Both the position numbers and the translations under genes were made by a program. From Streptomyces sp. NRRL F-5123 (GTDB lineage: Bacteria > Actinomycetota > Actinomycetes > Streptomycetales > Streptomycetaceae), in contig NZ_JOHY01000024.1 of NCBI RefSeq assembly GCF_000721495.1, positions 28,768 through 92,767 of the forward strand: a stretch of 64,000 nucleotides of DNA. Direction: 5' to 3'. Below are positions 1-33,149 of the stretch, one piece after another. Each line of letters begins with the position of its first letter. Within the stretch, counting starts at the first letter, position 1. A model generated the notes under the pieces. It ran no database searches. It had not been told where the DNA came from and saw only the letters and a list, made by a program, of their open reading frames with translations.

Positions 1-90
1 GCCGCCGGGGTGCCGCACACCCTCTACCGCCGCTGGCGAGGGGGCCTCGGACAGGCACATGCGCAGGGCGCGGGCCCCGCCATGCCTTAG
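1..90 (+). CDS. 3' end of an upstream gene, possibly ubiX-like flavin prenyltransferase
   Basis: An open frame runs from the first base to a TAG at 88-90 with strongly GC-biased third positions, giving a 29-residue C-terminal tail that includes PHTLYRRW. Too little is present to identify the product from sequence. In related Streptomyces, as I remember, a UbiX/UbiD/UbiA-type group for menaquinone assembly lies just before the AsnC regulator and mqnE, so ubiX is the best contextual guess. That is inference only. Confidence 0.35.
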   Translation, partial: AAGVPHTLYRRWRGGLGQAHAQGAGPAMP

Positions 91-24770: not shown

Positions 24771-24973
24771 CCCACCGGACCGGTCGGGCGCCATCCAGGT
24801 GGGGCGCCCGACCTGATCACGACGGAGCCTCGTTGGTGACGCCGTGGAGTTCGGCCAACGCTCGTAGCCCCGGGGGTGGTTGGGCAGCGTCCACAGGTCG
24901 CGGACCTGCCACTGCCAGGGTGTGGTGCTGCCTCAACCCGGCCCGGTCGGGCGTCCGCGCTGTGGGTGCCCGC

Positions 24974-26316
24974 TCAAGTGGCCCGCTGGGGTGAGAGCGC
25001 CCTGGCCCGGTCGAGGAGTTCGCGAACGTGAGGGTTGGTCCGGTGCGGCCGCGTAGCGGAGAGCATGGTGCGGAAACGCTCGTCCGCCCGGCCTGACTGC
25101 ACGAGCGGGTAGTCGTCCAAGGCGAGGTGCCAGTTACGGACGCTTCTTCCAACCGCCCAGTTTCGAGCTGCCATTCGGCGATCATTGCGCGGTGGCGGAC
25201 GCGGGCCCGACGGTAGATCGGAGGCCGGACCTTCTCGGAGTGCAAAAGTGCGCGGATCGCGGTCTCGCGGTCGCCCAGTTCGTAGGTGACTTGGGCTATG
25301 TGGTACGAGAGCGAGGCAGGGTCGTAGGAGCCGTGGGCCTTGGCCCTGGACTCGGCCTGTTCCATGGCGATCTCGGCGGAGTGCAGCACGGCGAGGGCGT
25401 GGGGACGATCGCCACTTCGGGCGAGGGCGTGGGCTTGCTGGCCCGCGAGGAAAGCCCGCATGCGGGGTCCGGCATGCGGCGAGGCCGCGGAGGCTGCGTC
25501 CGCGTACCGCTGAGCGGCGGGGCCGTGGCCCAGTTCCACAGCCTGAACGCTCATGCCTCGCAAGGTGGTGCAGTAGGTGAGGTGGTCGTCCGCGGCGAGC
25601 GCTAATTCGAGCGCCTTTGTGTAGTAGCTCTGGCCGAGTGAGTCCAGCCGTTCGTCTACGGCCATGTATCCGGTCAGATAGAGGTGGTCGGCGGCAGCCG
25701 AGAGCATCGCTTTGCGAACCGGCTCGGTGGCGGTTGCCTTCAGGTACGGCGCGATGTTGTTGACCAGGAACGCCGCTGCCAGCGGGCGGGCGGTCCGGCC
25801 GCCGAACTGGTCGTCGAGTTCGCTGATGCGCTCGGTCATGGCGATGACCGACTCGACCTCGGCCCTGCCGATGCGGGCGTACGGATCGGCCTTCAGCTTT
25901 TCGAACCGTCCGATGTGGTCCGGCCAGCCGGGGACACTCAGAGCGACCGAATACAGGCCCGTCCCGAGTACACCCCTGCGCGATGGGTCCATGTCCGTGC
26001 TCCCGAGATCGATCAGTCCCGCCACCGTATCCGTGGTGGGAGACCACAGGTCGGGTTGGTCGGACCAGCCCGCTTCAAACGCGGTGACCGGCCGCCTGAG
26101 ACGGCGGGTCAAGACCTCCAGCACCACATGCCGGTATTTGGCCATGGGGCGGGTGCCGGAGAGCCAGTGCGAGACGGCGGACTCGTCGTATTTGAGGGCG
26201 AACCCAGCCTCGGTGCCTGCCCGGTTCACCGCGCGCGCGAACTCACCGTTGCTCGACCACCGGCATTCGGCGACCAGCGAGGCGAATCTGCTGTTCGGTG
26301 TGCGTTCGTGTGCCAT
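24974..26316 (-). pseudogene. HTH-TPR transcriptional regulator with a frameshift
   Basis: From ATG 26316 the frame encodes an N-terminal Xre-like DNA-binding domain (FASLVAECRW through DESAVSHWLSGTRP) and TPR-like helices (about residues 130-400) including GQSYYTKALELALAADDHL. Around 25139-25142 the frame breaks. ETGRLEEA is followed by nonsense in the first frame, while VRNWHLALDDYPLVQSGRADE continues in another and ends normally at 24974. Adding one G in GCGTCC would restore a protein of about 446 residues. As read, the product would run on to 24817 with an unrelated tail. It is divergent from the lasso-peptide genes, so it is the likely local regulator. A sequencing error is possible. Confidence 0.72.
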
Positions 26317-26461
26317 CGAGCCCCCGGGCGCAGGTTTCAAGGGTTGCAGGCGTCAGTGGAGCCCCAATCGTATTCACGCTCGGCACACGCCTGTTGACTG
26401 AGTGTCGGGTACCCGGATGGGGCCCGGACAGAACACCGTCACCACAGAAGGGAACGAGCCG
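26317..26461. promoter_or_regulatory. Divergent promoter region of the lasso-peptide cluster
   Basis: The 145-bp gap lies between the HTH-TPR regulator (minus) and the precursor gene (plus). TTGACT (26394-26399) is a good plus-strand -35, and the palindrome CGGGTACCCG (26406-26415) sits in the spacer where a repressor or activator could act; the -10 is poor. On the minus strand TACGAT (26367-26372) is a reasonable -10. AAGGGA (26448-26453) is the precursor's ribosome site. Confidence 0.5.
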
Positions 26462-26599
26462 ATGGACGACGTGTGCACCATCACCACCGCAGGCGACGAG
26501 GACGCCGCCGGGCTGGTCGAGATCGGGGACGCGGCCAGCCTCACCGAGGGCCAGGGCGGCGGCAACAGCGAGGACAAGCGTCGCGCCTACAACTCCTGA
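26462..26599 (+). CDS. Lasso peptide precursor, albusnodin-like
   Basis: A 45-residue precursor. The leader is 29 residues and ends SLTE, with the Thr at -2 that lasso cyclases need. The LxxxGxxxxxT spacing (LVEIGDAASLT) of lasso leaders is kept, but no YxxP is visible. The predicted core GQGGGNSEDKRRAYNS has Gly1 for the ring nitrogen, Glu8 or Asp9 for the isopeptide bond and Lys10 as the acetylation candidate. It closely resembles albusnodin as I recall it, with a Ser in place of a C-terminal Cys. ATG 26462 is chosen over an upstream GTG because AAGGGA precedes it. Synthetase, B protein and acetyltransferase genes follow. Confidence 0.88.
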   Translation: MDDVCTITTAGDEDAAGLVEIGDAASLTEGQGGGNSEDKRRAYNS

Positions 26600-26666
26600 C
26601 CTGCTTCCCGGTGGTGCGGCTCGGCGTCGCCGGGCCGCACCACCCACGTGCTCTTGGGAGGAATCC

Positions 26667-28484
26667 ATGATCTTCGGCGGCTTTAGCGCCACCCCGGTCG
26701 CATCGGTGCCACGCCCGGCCGCATCCGTACCGCTTGCACCCGGGTCCAGCGCGTGGCGCCTCGGTGACGGTCCGGCACATGTGCTGACCGCCGAGAGCGG
26801 CCCCCGGAGGGTTCTGGTTCTCGGCTGGTGCGGGGCCGAGAAGGCCGAGCTGGCACGCCTGGCCGACGGCGTCCTGCCTGCCGACATCGCGTGGCGCTGG
26901 CCGGGCGCCTACGCCGTGGTCGAGGAGGCAACCGCCGCGGCCGTGGTGTACACCGATCCGGCTGCTGCCTGTCCGGTCTACGTGACCCGGTCCGACGACG
27001 GCTGGGCCTGGTCCAGCTCCGCGCGACTGCTGGCCGCGCTGACGGGGGCCGCGATCGACACCGAACGTCTGGCCTGCTCGGTGTTCCTCCCCTCCGTGCC
27101 CGGCTTGGCGGCGGGGCGGACCTTCTTCGACGGGGTACGCCAACTGCCGCCGGGCTGCCGCGTCGTGCTGCCCGGCGACGGCACTGCCTGGCGGGCTACG
27201 ACCGTGTGGCGACCCGAGCCGGTGCCTGGTCAACTGCCCGTCAGCCGCTTGCGTGAGGCGCTGGAGAGCGCGGTCGGGCTACGCGCAAACGCGCCGGGAC
27301 TGACGTCGGACCTGTCCGGCGGACTCGACTCCACCAGCGTTGCGGTGCTGGCCGCCGCCATGGCCGGACAGCGATTGAACGCGGTCACCGTGCACCCGGC
27401 CGAGAACCTCGAAGGGGCCGACCTGCGGCACGCCCGCCAGGCGGCCGCCCGCTGGCAGAACCGCATCGCCCACCACCTGCTGCCGCTGTCCGAAGAGCAC
27501 CTGCCCTACACCGAGGTGGCCGACGCCCCGGCGACCGACGAGCCCGCCCCCTCCACACTCACCCGCGCCCGGCTGGCCGCTCAACTGGACTGGATGCGGG
27601 ACAAACTAGGAAGCCGAACCCACCTGACCGGCGACGGCGGCGACAGTGTCTTGTTCCAGTCGCCGATCCATCTTGCCGATCTGGTCCGTCACCGGCACCC
27701 TCGCCGCGCGGTTTCCGAGGCATTCGGATGGGCTCGTCTCCGTCACGCACCCGTCGCACCACTGCTTCGGGACGCCTACCGCCTCGCCCACACCAGCCGC
27801 GACGAGGCTCTGAAGCAGCTCGCTGCGCAGGTCGGTGAGCCGGGACGCGACGACCACGGCAAAGTGGTCTGGTTCCCGCTACTGCCGTTTCCGTCCTGGG
27901 GCGAGCCGACCGTCACCCGTATGCTCGTCGCCTCCGCTCACCGTGCCGTCGCTGAGCCGGACCAGTTGGGCGGTCTGGATTTCGCGATACGGGCCGGGAT
28001 CGACGAGATCCGTGAAGTCGCCCGCTCCGCTGTCGCGGATGCGCAGCTTGCCCGCACCCGTGGCATCGACCTGCACAACCCTTTCCTCGACGGCCTGGTG
28101 GTGGACGCGGTGCTGACCACGCCGCTCGCGCGCAGAGCCGCCCTGCATGCATACAAGCCGCACCTGGCATGCGCCATGGCCGATCTGCTGCCGCCCGACA
28201 CGGCCGCACGCACCACCAAGGGCAGTTTTGACGCCGACCACTTCACCGGTATGCGCGCCAATCTGCCCGAGCTGTCGGGCCTCGCCGACGGCTATCTCGC
28301 GGCTCTCGGCATGGTGCACCCGGGCCGTTTCCGTCGACATTTGGCCCAGGCCGCCGCTGGGCTCCCGATGTCGCTGGCCACTCTTGAACAAGCCCTGACC
28401 GCCGAAGCGTGGCTCACGGCGCACCATCGCGATCCCGCGCCCGCCTGGACGCGCACTCCCGCAAGGAGCGAGACCCTTGCCTGA
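26667..28484 (+). CDS. Lasso macrolactam synthetase (asparagine-synthetase-like, C protein)
   Basis: A 605-residue protein that should adenylate the Glu8/Asp9 side chain of the core and close the macrolactam ring. The ATP pyrophosphatase loop LSGGLDSTS (about residue 215) is intact, and the second synthetase motif TGDGGDSVLF lies near 330. The N-terminal 200 residues resemble the glutaminase domain of AsnB but lack the Cys2 nucleophile, as expected for lasso C proteins. It fits the albusnodin/ikarugamycin-type cyclase class. GGGAGG lies before ATG 26667. Its end overlaps the B gene by 8 nt, showing tight coupling. Confidence 0.9.
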   Translation: MIFGGFSATPVASVPRPAASVPLAPGSSAWRLGDGPAHVLTAESGPRRVLVLGWCGAEKAELARLADGVLPADIAWRWPGAYAVVEEATAAAVVYTDPAAACPVYVTRSDDGWAWSSSARLLAALTGAAIDTERLACSVFLPSVPGLAAGRTFFDGVRQLPPGCRVVLPGDGTAWRATTVWRPEPVPGQLPVSRLREALESAVGLRANAPGLTSDLSGGLDSTSVAVLAAAMAGQRLNAVTVHPAENLEGADLRHARQAAARWQNRIAHHLLPLSEEHLPYTEVADAPATDEPAPSTLTRARLAAQLDWMRDKLGSRTHLTGDGGDSVLFQSPIHLADLVRHRHPRRAVSEAFGWARLRHAPVAPLLRDAYRLAHTSRDEALKQLAAQVGEPGRDDHGKVVWFPLLPFPSWGEPTVTRMLVASAHRAVAEPDQLGGLDFAIRAGIDEIREVARSAVADAQLARTRGIDLHNPFLDGLVVDAVLTTPLARRAALHAYKPHLACAMADLLPPDTAARTTKGSFDADHFTGMRANLPELSGLADGYLAALGMVHPGRFRRHLAQAAAGLPMSLATLEQALTAEAWLTAHHRDPAPAWTRTPARSETLA

Positions 28485-29211
28485 CCTCGACCTCCTCAGC
28501 TTGCCTGGCCACGTCCGCGCCGCCGACTTCGGGCATGTCCTGGTCCTCGTCGACTACAGGACGGGGCAGGTGCAGGGCCTGCTGCCCGCCGCCGCGGCCC
28601 GCTTCCGGGACGCCGCTCGCGCCGGCACCGCCCGGCCCCTGGCCGGGCCCCTCGCCGAGGGGATGCTGGCCGCCGGACTCCTTGCCCCCGCGCTGCCAGC
28701 CACCACCGCCGAGTGGCCCGTGACCCGGGCTGCCGTCGTGGCCGCGAGTTGGGGCAGCGCCGAACACCCGGCCGGCGTCGTACGCCCTGCCCCCGCCCCC
28801 GTCCGTAGCATGCTCGCCGCCGCCGGAGCGCTCGCGGCGGTCGCCGTCGTCAAGGCAGCCGGTGAGCCCGGCACCGCCATGCTCCGCGTCGTGCGTGCTG
28901 TCGGGCGGGCGGTGTCAACCTGCCGCCGTCCTGCCACCCCTGAGGAGGCAGAGGCCGCAGTGCGGACGGTCCGTGCCGCCGGGTGGTTCTCCCCGGGGCG
29001 TACTGCCTGCCTGGAGGAATCCGCTTCCGTTGCACTGCTGCTGGCAGGGCGTAGCCTCAGTGTCACCTGGTGCCATGGGATCGCCGCTGACCCCGTCCGG
29101 CTGCATGCCTGGGTACAAACTGAGGACGGAGCACCGGTAGCCGAACCACCCTCCACGCTCGCCTACACGCCCGTCCTCACCCTCGGAGCACGCCATCACC
29201 ACCAGCCCTGA
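28477..29211 (+). CDS. Lasso leader peptidase with fused recognition domain (B1-B2)
   Basis: A 244-residue protein. Residues 1-75 (FGHVLVLVDYRTGQVQGLLP through LAEGMLAAGLLAP) look like the PqqD/RRE-type leader-binding domain, normally a separate B1 protein. The C-terminal part looks like the transglutaminase-type Cys protease B2: catalytic Cys in TACLEESASVALLLAG (about 182) and His in RLHAWVQTEDG (about 213). Together they would bind the leader and cut after Glu -1. A helical or membrane-like stretch at 105-130 joins them. The start overlaps the synthetase gene. Confidence 0.82.
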   Translation: MPDLDLLSLPGHVRAADFGHVLVLVDYRTGQVQGLLPAAAARFRDAARAGTARPLAGPLAEGMLAAGLLAPALPATTAEWPVTRAAVVAASWGSAEHPAGVVRPAPAPVRSMLAAAGALAAVAVVKAAGEPGTAMLRVVRAVGRAVSTCRRPATPEEAEAAVRTVRAAGWFSPGRTACLEESASVALLLAGRSLSVTWCHGIAADPVRLHAWVQTEDGAPVAEPPSTLAYTPVLTLGARHHHQP

Positions 29212-29269
29212 GCCGATCATCTGGGTTCGCGACGCCGCCTGCGGCCTCGGTCCCTACCGCGCCGACCTT

Positions 29270-29773
29270 GTGGACACCTACTGGCGGTGGGAGCAGGACC
29301 CCGCGCTGATCGTCGGGTACGGCCGTCAGCAGCCGGAATCCCTGGAAGCCCGCACCGAAGGCATCGCCTCGCAACTCCGTGGAGATAACGTCCGCTTCAC
29401 CGTCTACGACCTCTCCGGCGCCGAGGAGCCCGTCCCTGCCGGGGTCACCACCTTGCTGCCAGACCATGCCGTCCGTACGGCCGAATACGTGGTGATGCTC
29501 GCCCCCGAGGCCCGCGGTAAGGGCTTGGGCACCGCCGCGACTCGCCTGACCTTGGACTATGGCTTTCACGTCACCAATCTGCGGATGATTTGGCTCAAGG
29601 TCCTCGCACCCAACAAGGCGGCCGTCCGCGTGTACGAGAAGGCCGGCTTCCGCCCTGCCGGTGTGCTGCGCGAAGGTGGGTACTGGCTCGGCAAGGTGTG
29701 CGACGAGCTGGTCATGGACGCGCTTGCCGCCGACTTCTCCGGTCCCTCCGCGGTCATGTCCCTCGTGCCGTGA
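29270..29773 (+). CDS. GNAT acetyltransferase, probable lasso-peptide Lys acetylase
   Basis: A GNAT protein with motif A ARGKGLGTAATRLTLDYGF and the C-terminal VRVYEKAGFRPAGVLRE. From GTG 29270 it has 167 residues, but that start cuts through a family-like N-terminal block (IWVRDAACGLGPYRADLVDTYW) whose frame stays open to the stop side of the B gene. No ATG, GTG or TTG occurs there. An ATC at 29195, 6 nt after GGAG, is where an ATG would be expected. Its position directly after the B gene suggests acetylation of Lys10 in the core peptide, as for albusnodin. Confidence 0.78.
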   Translation: MDTYWRWEQDPALIVGYGRQQPESLEARTEGIASQLRGDNVRFTVYDLSGAEEPVPAGVTTLLPDHAVRTAEYVVMLAPEARGKGLGTAATRLTLDYGFHVTNLRMIWLKVLAPNKAAVRVYEKAGFRPAGVLREGGYWLGKVCDELVMDALAADFSGPSAVMSLVP

Positions 29774-30561: not shown

Positions 30562-31098
30562 TCAGGCCGTCGCCCGCAGGTCCGCCGCCGTCAGCAGCGC
30601 GTGCAGGCGGATGCCCTCGGCGGCGAGCGCTTCTGAGCCGCCCTGGGCGCGGTCGATGACGCAGAGGGCGGCGTCCACCCGGGCGCCCAGCGCGCGGAGT
30701 TCGGCGGTGGACAGCACGATCTGGCCGCCGCTCGTCACCACGTCCTCCACGACGAGCACCCGGCGGCCGGTCACATCGGCTCCCTCGGCGAGCCGGCACG
30801 TGCCGTACGCCTTCGCCTCCTTGCGGACGAACGCGCAGGGTATGCCCGTGTGGCGGCCGAGCGCGGTCACGACGGGGATGCCGCCCATCTCCAGCCCGGC
30901 GAGCACCTCCGTTCCGGCCGGCACGAGCGGGGCCATGCGACGGGCGATCTCGTCGAGCAGGACGGGGTCGGCCTCGAAGCGGTACTTGTCGAAGTACTCG
31001 GTGGCGGTGCGCCCGGACCGCAGCGTGAACTGCCCGGTGAGATGGGCGGCTTCGCGGATCCGGCGGGCGAGGTCGGCGTGCGTCGGAGGAGTGGTCAC
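30562..31098 (-). CDS. pyrE: Orotate phosphoribosyltransferase
   Basis: PyrE joins orotate to PRPP, giving OMP in pyrimidine synthesis. The 178-residue protein has the PRPP-binding motif VLVVEDVVTSGGQ (about residue 117-129), the orotate-loop KAYGTCRL at about 97, and YFDKYRFEADP near the N-terminus. The GTG start is used, with AAAGG upstream. The gene stands alone, away from other pyr genes, which is usual in streptomycetes. About 600 bp upstream is GC-rich and without a gene. Confidence 0.94.
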   Translation of the reverse strand: MTTPPTHADLARRIREAAHLTGQFTLRSGRTATEYFDKYRFEADPVLLDEIARRMAPLVPAGTEVLAGLEMGGIPVVTALGRHTGIPCAFVRKEAKAYGTCRLAEGADVTGRRVLVVEDVVTSGGQIVLSTAELRALGARVDAALCVIDRAQGGSEALAAEGIRLHALLTAADLRATA

Positions 31099-31706: not shown

Positions 31707-33149
31707 ATGAGCCCGACCACGAGCCCGACCCCGAGAGACCGCGCAACACCCTCCCCACCGCGAGACGTTCGGACCCGCGCCCGGCGCGGCCTCACCGCCG
31801 GACTCGGCGCGCTGCTGCTGGCCGTCGGCGCCGCGCTCGGCGTGTCGCTGACCGGCGGGTCTGCGGCGGCAGCCCCGGCGGCCGCCCCCGCCGCCGTGCC
31901 GAACCCCCCGGCCGGCTGGACCGCCGTGTTCAGTGACGACTTCAACGGCGCGGCCGGCAGCGGCCTCAACCGCGCGAACTGGCTCTACGACATCGGCACC
32001 GGCTACAACTACCCCGGCGCGGCGGGAAATTGGGGCACAGGCGAGATCGAGACGGCCACCGACTCGACCGCCAACGTCTACCAGGACGGCTCCGGGCACC
32101 TCGTGATCAAGCCCGTCAAGGACGCCTCCGGGCACTGGACTTCGGGCCGGATCGAGACGCAGCGGACCGACCTCGCCGCGCCCGCGGGCGGCCAGTTGGA
32201 GATCAGCGCGTCGCTCAAGCAGCCCGCACCGGCCAGCGGGCTGGGCTACTGGCCCGCCTTCTGGGCGATGGGCGCCGACGCCCGGCCGGTCGGGGCGACG
32301 AACTGGCCCGGCATCGGCGAGCTGGACATCATGGAGGACGTCAACGCGCTGAGCCAGCACTCGACGACCTTCCACTGCGGGGTGTGGGCCGGTGAATGCC
32401 ATGACCCGGACGGCATCAGCAGCGGCCTCCAGCCGTGCGGCGGGTGCCAGAGCGGCTTCCACACGTACTCCGTGATCATCGACCGCACCAACACCTCCGC
32501 CGAGCAGTTGCGCTTCGCCCTCGACGGCGCGGTGACGTACACGGTCAACGAGAACCAGGTCTCGACGGCGACCTGGCAGGCCGCCGTCGACCACGGCTTC
32601 TTCGCCATCTTCGACGTCGCGATCGGCGGCTCGTACCCGAACAAGGTGTGCGGCTGCACCTCCCCCTCCGCCGATATCAGCTCCGGCGCGGGCATGACGG
32701 TCGACTGGATCGCCGTCAACCGCACCACGAGCGGGAGCGGCACCGGCGGTACGTCCACGGGCACCTCGACCGGTACGTCCACCGGCACCAGCACCGGTAC
32801 GTCGACCGGTACGTCCACCGGCACCAGCACCGGCACCTCCACCGGCACGAGCACCGGCACCACCGGCGGCAGCACGACCGGGCCCGACTACACCGCCGGG
32901 GCGGCGACCACCGGCTCCGGGCAGGTGCGGATCACCTTCACCCCGACGACGCCCGCCGCGTACGTCGACGTCCACTACCTCGTCAACGGGGCGGGTCAGC
33001 AGAACTTCCGGATGGCCAACAGCGGCGGCACCTGGACGCAGACGGTCAGCGGCCTGTCGCCCGGCACCGTGATCACGTACTGGTTCACGTACGAGAAGAA
33101 CGGCCCGCAGTACGACACCCCGCACTTCACGTACACCTACACCGGGTAG
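31707..33149 (+). CDS. Secreted GH16 endo-beta-1,3-glucanase with CBM56
   Basis: A 480-residue secreted enzyme for laminarin-type beta-glucan. A signal peptide (residues about 24-56, with RTRARRGLTAGLGALLLAVG) precedes the GH16 domain (about 70-340), whose catalytic ExDxxE is GELDIMEDVN. NWGTGEIETAT and PAFWAMG are other GH16 marks. A Thr/Ser/Gly linker of repeated TGTS (about 350-395) joins to a C-terminal CBM56-like domain (about 397-480) that should bind beta-1,3-glucan. GAAAGG lies 14 nt before ATG 31707. It stands alone behind a CebR-like operator. Confidence 0.92.
   Translation: MSPTTSPTPRDRATPSPPRDVRTRARRGLTAGLGALLLAVGAALGVSLTGGSAAAAPAAAPAAVPNPPAGWTAVFSDDFNGAAGSGLNRANWLYDIGTGYNYPGAAGNWGTGEIETATDSTANVYQDGSGHLVIKPVKDASGHWTSGRIETQRTDLAAPAGGQLEISASLKQPAPASGLGYWPAFWAMGADARPVGATNWPGIGELDIMEDVNALSQHSTTFHCGVWAGECHDPDGISSGLQPCGGCQSGFHTYSVIIDRTNTSAEQLRFALDGAVTYTVNENQVSTATWQAAVDHGFFAIFDVAIGGSYPNKVCGCTSPSADISSGAGMTVDWIAVNRTTSGSGTGGTSTGTSTGTSTGTSTGTSTGTSTGTSTGTSTGTSTGTTGGSTTGPDYTAGAATTGSGQVRITFTPTTPAAYVDVHYLVNGAGQQNFRMANSGGTWTQTVSGLSPGTVITYWFTYEKNGPQYDTPHFTYTYTG

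Follow-up and report, generated by a model that had tools for sequence, protein, structure and literature searches.

What does a small lasso-peptide gene cluster of Streptomyces sp. NRRL F-5123 make, and where does translation of its acetyltransferase gene begin? The cluster lies in a stretch of 64,000 nucleotides from contig NZ_JOHY01000024.1 (positions 28,768 to 92,767, forward strand), which is called the window and whose numbering is used throughout. Its four plus-strand genes, encoding a precursor (A), a lasso macrolactam cyclase (C), a B protein (B), and a GNAT acetyltransferase (T), form a compact A-C-B-T operon. The genes, their families, the conserved residues, and an AUC (ATC in the DNA) site at the proposed beginning of T are established by the sequence. 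We consider it very probable, taking the explanation as a whole, that this is an albusnodin-family lasso operon with a Glu8 ring, acetyl-Lys10, and an AUC-initiated T. The cluster as such is ordinary, being a further member of the albusnodin family with a core already known elsewhere.

The operon and its gene families

All four genes are open and of full length in the window, and their family-model scores are above the cut-offs and far above chance (Table 1). A begins with ATG and encodes a leader ending in SLTE, followed by the core GQGGGNSEDKRRAYNS. The 45-residue precursor with Thr at -2 and this core, noted in the first-pass annotation, were confirmed by the reading of open reading frames. 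The same annotation had described a synthetase with an intact PP-loop and no Cys2, which agrees with the SGGLDST motif and the MIF beginning of C, and an albusnodin-like lasso cluster of overlapping or closely spaced genes with a GNAT partner, which the NF033525, NF033561, and GNAT matches corroborated. The end of C and the start of B overlap by 8 nt, and AAGGAG precedes the TTG start of B. No transporter was recognised near the cluster when the translations of the listed open reading frames were read.

Table 1. Features of the albusnodin-family operon and of the proposed start site of T (window coordinates).
Feature	Position	Strand	Evidence or remark
Precursor A, 45 aa	26462..26599	+	Open reading frame; NF033525 (albusnodin precursor, NCBIfam), 66.8 bits, E 1.6e-18, cut-off 30
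A leader, 29 aa	26462-26548	+	
A core, 16 aa	26549-26596	+	
A stop codon	26597-26599		
Lasso macrolactam cyclase C, 605 aa, with PP-loop	26667..28484	+	NF033561 (albusnodin/ikarugamycin macrolactam cyclase, NCBIfam), 736.5 bits, cut-off 300; PF00733
B protein, 244 aa, TTG start	28477..29211	+	C-terminal half: NF033537 (lasso protein B2, NCBIfam), 84.6 bits, cut-off 33; model; weak fold matches to B1 proteins
B, leader-binding-like part	aa ~1-72		
B, B2 protease domain	aa 111-235		
GGAG, putative Shine-Dalgarno site of T, within the 3' end of B	29185..29188	+	GGA is the B-frame codon in 17/17 ATC loci
ATC, proposed start codon of T	29195..29197	+	Start-codon comparison; B codon CAT in 17/17
GNAT acetyltransferase T, 192 aa counted from ATC	29195..29773	+	PF13302, 57.8 bits, cut-off 25.4; PF00583, 49.4 bits, cut-off 20.7; 56% identity to PDB 9iy3

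The start codon of T

From its upstream stop as far as a GTG at 29270, the T frame of the window lacks ATG, GTG, and TTG codons, and homology to other T proteins reaches about 25 codons upstream of this GTG. A start at 29270 would drop the first 25 residues. The frame must begin further upstream, because W10, C16, L18, G19, R22, and D24, invariant in 23 aligned T proteins, and the first strand of the T model (residues 16-20; mean predicted local distance difference test score, pLDDT, 77) would otherwise be lost. The ATC at 29195 lies six bases after GGAG. At the GGAG-spaced position, 30 non-duplicate T relatives carried 17 ATC, 9 ATG, and 4 GTG, always 6 nt after GGAG except in L033, L069, and L111 (7 nt). 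The set was made of T genes with at least 60% identity and at least 150 bits (35 rows), from which the duplicates L107, L112, and L113 and the out-of-frame L114 and L124 were removed; the fragments L071, L132, and L133 fell below the score limit. The ATC records include Streptomyces sp. MnatMP-M17, S. corynorhini AC230, S. diastatochromogenes NRRL B-1698, Streptomyces sp. 150FB, and plasmid unnamed2 of Streptomyces sp. BB1-1-1. Ten of the 17 ATC loci, the window among them, lack any ATG, GTG, or TTG in the stretch that runs from the preceding in-frame stop to codon +24. T genes below 60% identity stand outside the count and by eye mostly begin with ATG or GTG, with the exception of L056 and L062; in these two distant genes (41-43% identity) GGGAGG may be followed by an ATC start or by a different unusual start codon.

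The site overlaps the end of B, whose frame reads cAT Cnn, and the overlapping B codon is CAT in every ATC locus. Of the 790 His codons counted in the B and C genes of the loci examined, 167 (21%) are CAT, and the share of CAT at other conserved His columns of B is 5/14, 8/14, 5/17, and 4/17. Similarly, the Gly codon of B that carries GGAG is always GGA, whereas each of the remaining conserved Gly columns has GGA five times at most. Shared ancestry contributes to the CAT and GGA choices, but the extent to which it fixes such codons by itself can be gauged from the other columns. ATC occurred only in T genes with B sequence upstream (17/27, L109 and L110 keeping only part of B), and the T genes without B upstream (L108, L111, and L115) used ATG in 3/3 cases. 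On the T tree the ATC label needs five changes, of which well-supported branches alone force just one.

Altogether, the comparison of sequences suggests that T most likely starts at ATC 29195. We lean slightly towards a natural, evolutionarily kept AUC initiation that is held by selection as weak or B-coupled initiation is useful. Several points weigh against this reading. The start-finding script preferred the 6-nt spacing and accepted any of seven codons. Ordinary in-frame starts lie further upstream in six of the 17 ATC loci (L028, L047, L049, L052, L068, and L104), and L032 has a TTG at codon +8. The region around the site is conserved overall, with a mean pairwise identity of 73.5% outside GGAG and ATC, so that the ATC loci are not independent. 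AUC is a rare and generally weak start, and the proposal, like that for the chemistry, is drawn from sequence and models. Among the listed titles of the literature on AUC or ATC start codons, none concerned albusnodin or lasso genes; only titles were covered, and earlier notice elsewhere is possible.

Public annotation of T is divided. Among 120 listed proteins of 564 matches, 12 begin at the ATC-equivalent position, 97 are spread over 21 other offsets, and the motif is absent from 11, as judged by a simple motif offset. This measure ignores small indels, which some of the small offsets really are, and the offsets +1 to +5 also cover ATG/GTG-group genes with their true start there.

The core, the predicted ring, and the tail

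A protein search with A returned 27 proteins. Leaving aside two that come from the window itself, 11 of the remaining 25 had the identical core, and several public precursors with this core are already named 'albusnodin family lasso peptide'. Hence, the first impression of a new core variant, with the C-terminal Ser as a mark of novelty, was not borne out and had to be rejected.

Cores with Gly1, Glu8, Lys10, and Tyr14 were found in 31 of 32 loci anchored by the hidden Markov model of the precursor family. The exception, L064, has a precursor score of 24.9, below the cut-off, no T, and a core without Lys10. The pattern that gave 42 distinct cores demanded G1, E8, K10, and Y14 and is uninformative for those four columns, so their conservation is taken from the looser listing, in which an acidic residue was still wanted, at loci chosen by the family model. 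The 42 cores have D, N, G, A, or S at position 9. With Glu at position 8 in 31/32 loci and a variable position 9, the alignment points to Glu8 as the likely acceptor for the ring (Gly1-Glu8). Of the two acceptors originally considered, Glu8 was thus retained and Asp9 rejected, position 9 not being conserved. The ends of the relatives' cores are S, C, SCG, CA, HH, or a stop at Asn15, and isolated albusnodin lacked its last Cys, as stated in excerpts of a review (PMC9266682). Because the relatives' ends vary and albusnodin was isolated without its last residue, Ser16 is probably unimportant.

The probable acetyl site and the proposed biosynthesis

The nearest solved relative of T is PDB 9iy3, which has the same fold (identity counted over 188 columns, the profile alignment beginning at position 4) and which, together with 9iy4 and 9ubc, is entitled 'Iterative acetyltransferase on lasso peptides from Actinomycetes'. 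The literature search found no paper naming 9iy3, and the term 'iterative acetyltransferase' was not met in the retrieved papers. T is adjacent in 29 of the 32 precursor-anchored loci and unbroken in 28. Both T-less relatives with a clearly different core, L064 and the plasmid-borne L106 (NZ_CP118575.1), lack Lys10. Albusnodin is acetylated on Lys10 according to excerpts of two reviews (PMC9266682, PMC8498205). Conservation of Lys10 and its absence from the divergent T-less cores uphold the earlier proposal of an acetyl group on this residue, which we infer to be the best candidate site. Against it, L057 and L071 have no T and T is broken in L048, L114, and L124 though other parts of these clusters are kept, and 9iy3 is called iterative, yet the core studied here has one Lys.

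B is probably a fusion of a leader-binding and a protease part, as indicated by its model (mean pLDDT 88, 17 sequences). Residues 13-65 were modelled as three strands and two helices, and the helical and protease part runs from residue 109 on. Foldseek returned weak matches only, none with E < 0.001, the best of them including 5v1v (TbiB1 with leader, probability 0.90) and 6jx3 (lasso synthetase B1 with leader, 0.80). No Pfam match to a leader-binding (B1/RRE) domain was obtained in any of the 17 B members, and no sequence relatives of B or C were found in the PDB. Cys178 and His210 are invariant in the 17 B proteins. One plasmid cluster that is more distantly related has two separate genes for a PqqD-family protein and B2.

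From knowledge of these families the following steps may be proposed. The N-terminal part of B would bind the leader and its protease part would cut after Glu(-1). C would activate the side chain of Glu8 with ATP and join it to Gly1, closing an 8-residue ring around the tail. T would acetylate the side chain of Lys10. Translation of T would initiate at AUC 29195, overlapping the end of B, and would probably be coupled to the synthesis of B. The expected product would be an acetylated lasso of 15-16 residues with a monoisotopic mass of 1718.77 Da for all 16 residues, or of 1631.74 Da if the last Ser is absent.

Stand-alone T genes and the role of acetylation

A search for T in 392 genomes of one large genus matched 30 of them at E 1e-25. 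Full-length T genes without A, C, or B, or with remnants of these only, were present at eleven fetched loci (L108, L110, L111, L116, L118, L123, L127, L128, L129, L130, and L131). A cyclase search of 14 genomes did not find an albusnodin-type cyclase in seven: G927 and G1007 gave no match, and G056, G1059, G1075, G923, and G1049 gave matches of at most 127 bits with 29-34% identity, plus an additional one in G1059 (37%, 58.8 bits). G989, G1100, and G931, with a 37-38% cyclase elsewhere, and G1105 (33%, 150 bits) were not counted in the seven.

The T proteins of L108, L110, and L111 are 74-75% identical to that of the window, and their pairwise ratios of non-synonymous to synonymous substitution rates (dN/dS) to the nearest relative, 0.15-0.18, resemble those of cluster copies. 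T of L115 is shortened and decaying (dN/dS 0.84). Neither A nor C was found at L110, where B is broken and reading of translations showed transposase-like frames upstream; at L034, A was not found, only the end of C matched, and B and T remain. Reading of translations at L108:3698-6561 placed the stand-alone albT-like gene after a TetR-like gene, which is divergent from an efflux-transporter-like gene.

The stand-alone T genes would suit an immunity or protective role, with the chances about even, because intact T stands alone in seven genomes without an albusnodin-type cyclase. By the same balanced estimate, acetylation may additionally shield the producer from the peptide that it makes. Protection is weakened by three facts: two of the seven cyclase-less genomes (G927 and G1059) keep remnants of B next to T, the identity to the window T is just 42-51% for eight of the eleven stand-alone proteins (L116, L118, L123, and L127-L131), and T has been lost or broken in the five clusters named above for the acetyl site. 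The eight distant genes may do something else.

It is a serious possibility, though one we tend to doubt, that acetylation is mainly a biosynthetic need, helping folding or acting on the linear precursor, rather than protection. Excerpts of the same two albusnodin reviews report that without albT neither albusnodin nor an unacetylated intermediate was obtained, and suggest that acetylation precedes folding. A 2026 review (PMC13352647), in the part consulted, places acetylation among the modifications confirmed to take place after lasso formation and lists self-resistance for triculamin and lariocidin. The intact lone T genes in the cyclase-less genomes also speak against a mainly biosynthetic need.

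Other starts, decay, and frameshifting

It is unlikely that T starts elsewhere, i.e., at an ordinary start upstream inside B, at an ATC or CTG just before Trp10, or at GTG 29270. RefSeq begins T of L104 at 8532, just before Trp10 and seven codons past ATC 8511, and 27 of the 120 listed T proteins (of 564) begin 7 or 8 codons after the ATC position, more than the 12 that begin at it; the upstream in-frame ATG, GTG, or TTG of six ATC loci would fit as well. Opposed to this are the window and the nine other ATC loci with no ordinary start in the interval, and the ATG and GTG relatives, which begin at the GGAG-spaced position. The codon before Trp10 is CTC, not a start codon, in four of the 17 (L042, L045, L046, and L068), and GTG 29270 would remove the invariant residues and the first strand; both of these positions were rejected.

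A silent or decaying relic in this strain is an improbable explanation of the cluster. The frame of the neighbouring NsdA-type regulator is broken near 25140 and several related clusters show decay (L034, L057, L071, and L110), but A, C, B, and T are open at full length with family-level scores, and the window T gave pairwise dN/dS values of 0.13-0.20 with its four nearest relatives.

A B-T fusion produced by programmed +1 frameshifting at the stop of B (CCC.TGA), with no separate initiation, was rejected as very improbable, the final codon of B not being constant in the 17 ATC loci: CCC.TGA, over which the T frame is open in the window, occurs in ten, but the remaining seven have CGC (4), CTC (2), or GAC (1) before TGA, the ATG and GTG relatives need no shift, and the CAT and GGA choices mark the start site and its GGAG, not the slip site.

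Distribution and neighbouring genes

Genome searches for the precursor family, whose genome sets overlap, gave matches in 2/35 genomes of the genus, 24/394 of the family, 13/391 of the order, 12/70 of another genus of the family, and 1/396 of the phylum, the last being the window's own. The matching rows of the order search all belong to the same family. When the cyclase family was searched in 297 genomes, independently of the precursor, 22 places scored above 560 bits, the next score being 346; all 22 were the window or precursor-anchored loci and all had T, broken in one (L048). Excerpts of the review PMC8498205 mention 43 similar clusters already found with AlbT. Albusnodin-type cyclase clusters also occur on large plasmids of Streptomyces and Amycolatopsis (L104, L105, and L106). 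In L106, with its core devoid of Lys10, a methyltransferase-like gene stands at the place of T.

Directly upstream of the cluster lies a divergent gene for an NsdA-family TPR regulator (24817-26340, minus strand; NF053720, 359.5 bits), whose C-terminal part continues in a different frame past the break. It is 82% identical over 391 residues to the counterpart beside the L044 cluster, and several related clusters have weaker matches to it nearby. Downstream, reading of translations indicated genes resembling an orotate phosphoribosyltransferase (30562-31098, minus strand) and a secreted glycosyl hydrolase (31707-33149, plus strand).

Relation to known systems and significance

The core of albusnodin has Gln at position 6. 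The window core has Asn6 and Ser16, and excerpts of PMC9266682 give albusnodin a C-terminal Cys; the core of the window is present in the public precursors described above. The albusnodin cluster of Streptomyces albus DSM 41398 (albA, albC, albB, and albT) has the same A-C-B-T order according to excerpts of PMC8498205, the same precursor and cyclase families, an acetyltransferase partner, and Lys10. PDB 9iy3 shares its fold and 56% sequence identity with T but differs in being described as iterative, the window core having a single Lys. For lariocidin and triculamin, Lys acetylation is reported as self-resistance in the consulted part of PMC13352647. The lariocidin cluster has a GNAT gene, lrcE, like the T gene of the window (the GNATs being likened by description), but it differs in that B1 and B2 are separate and that transporter genes and a clostripain are present, according to excerpts of PMC11451635.

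The specialist interest thus concerns the conserved AUC start of T and the stand-alone T copies, not the cluster itself. The AUC start may explain the scattered public annotation of the T start, and constructs made from annotated starts may yield a shortened enzyme. The stand-alone copies make the purpose of the acetyl group, folding or self-protection, directly testable. If true, a naturally kept AUC start would offer a good streptomycete model of weak or coupled initiation.

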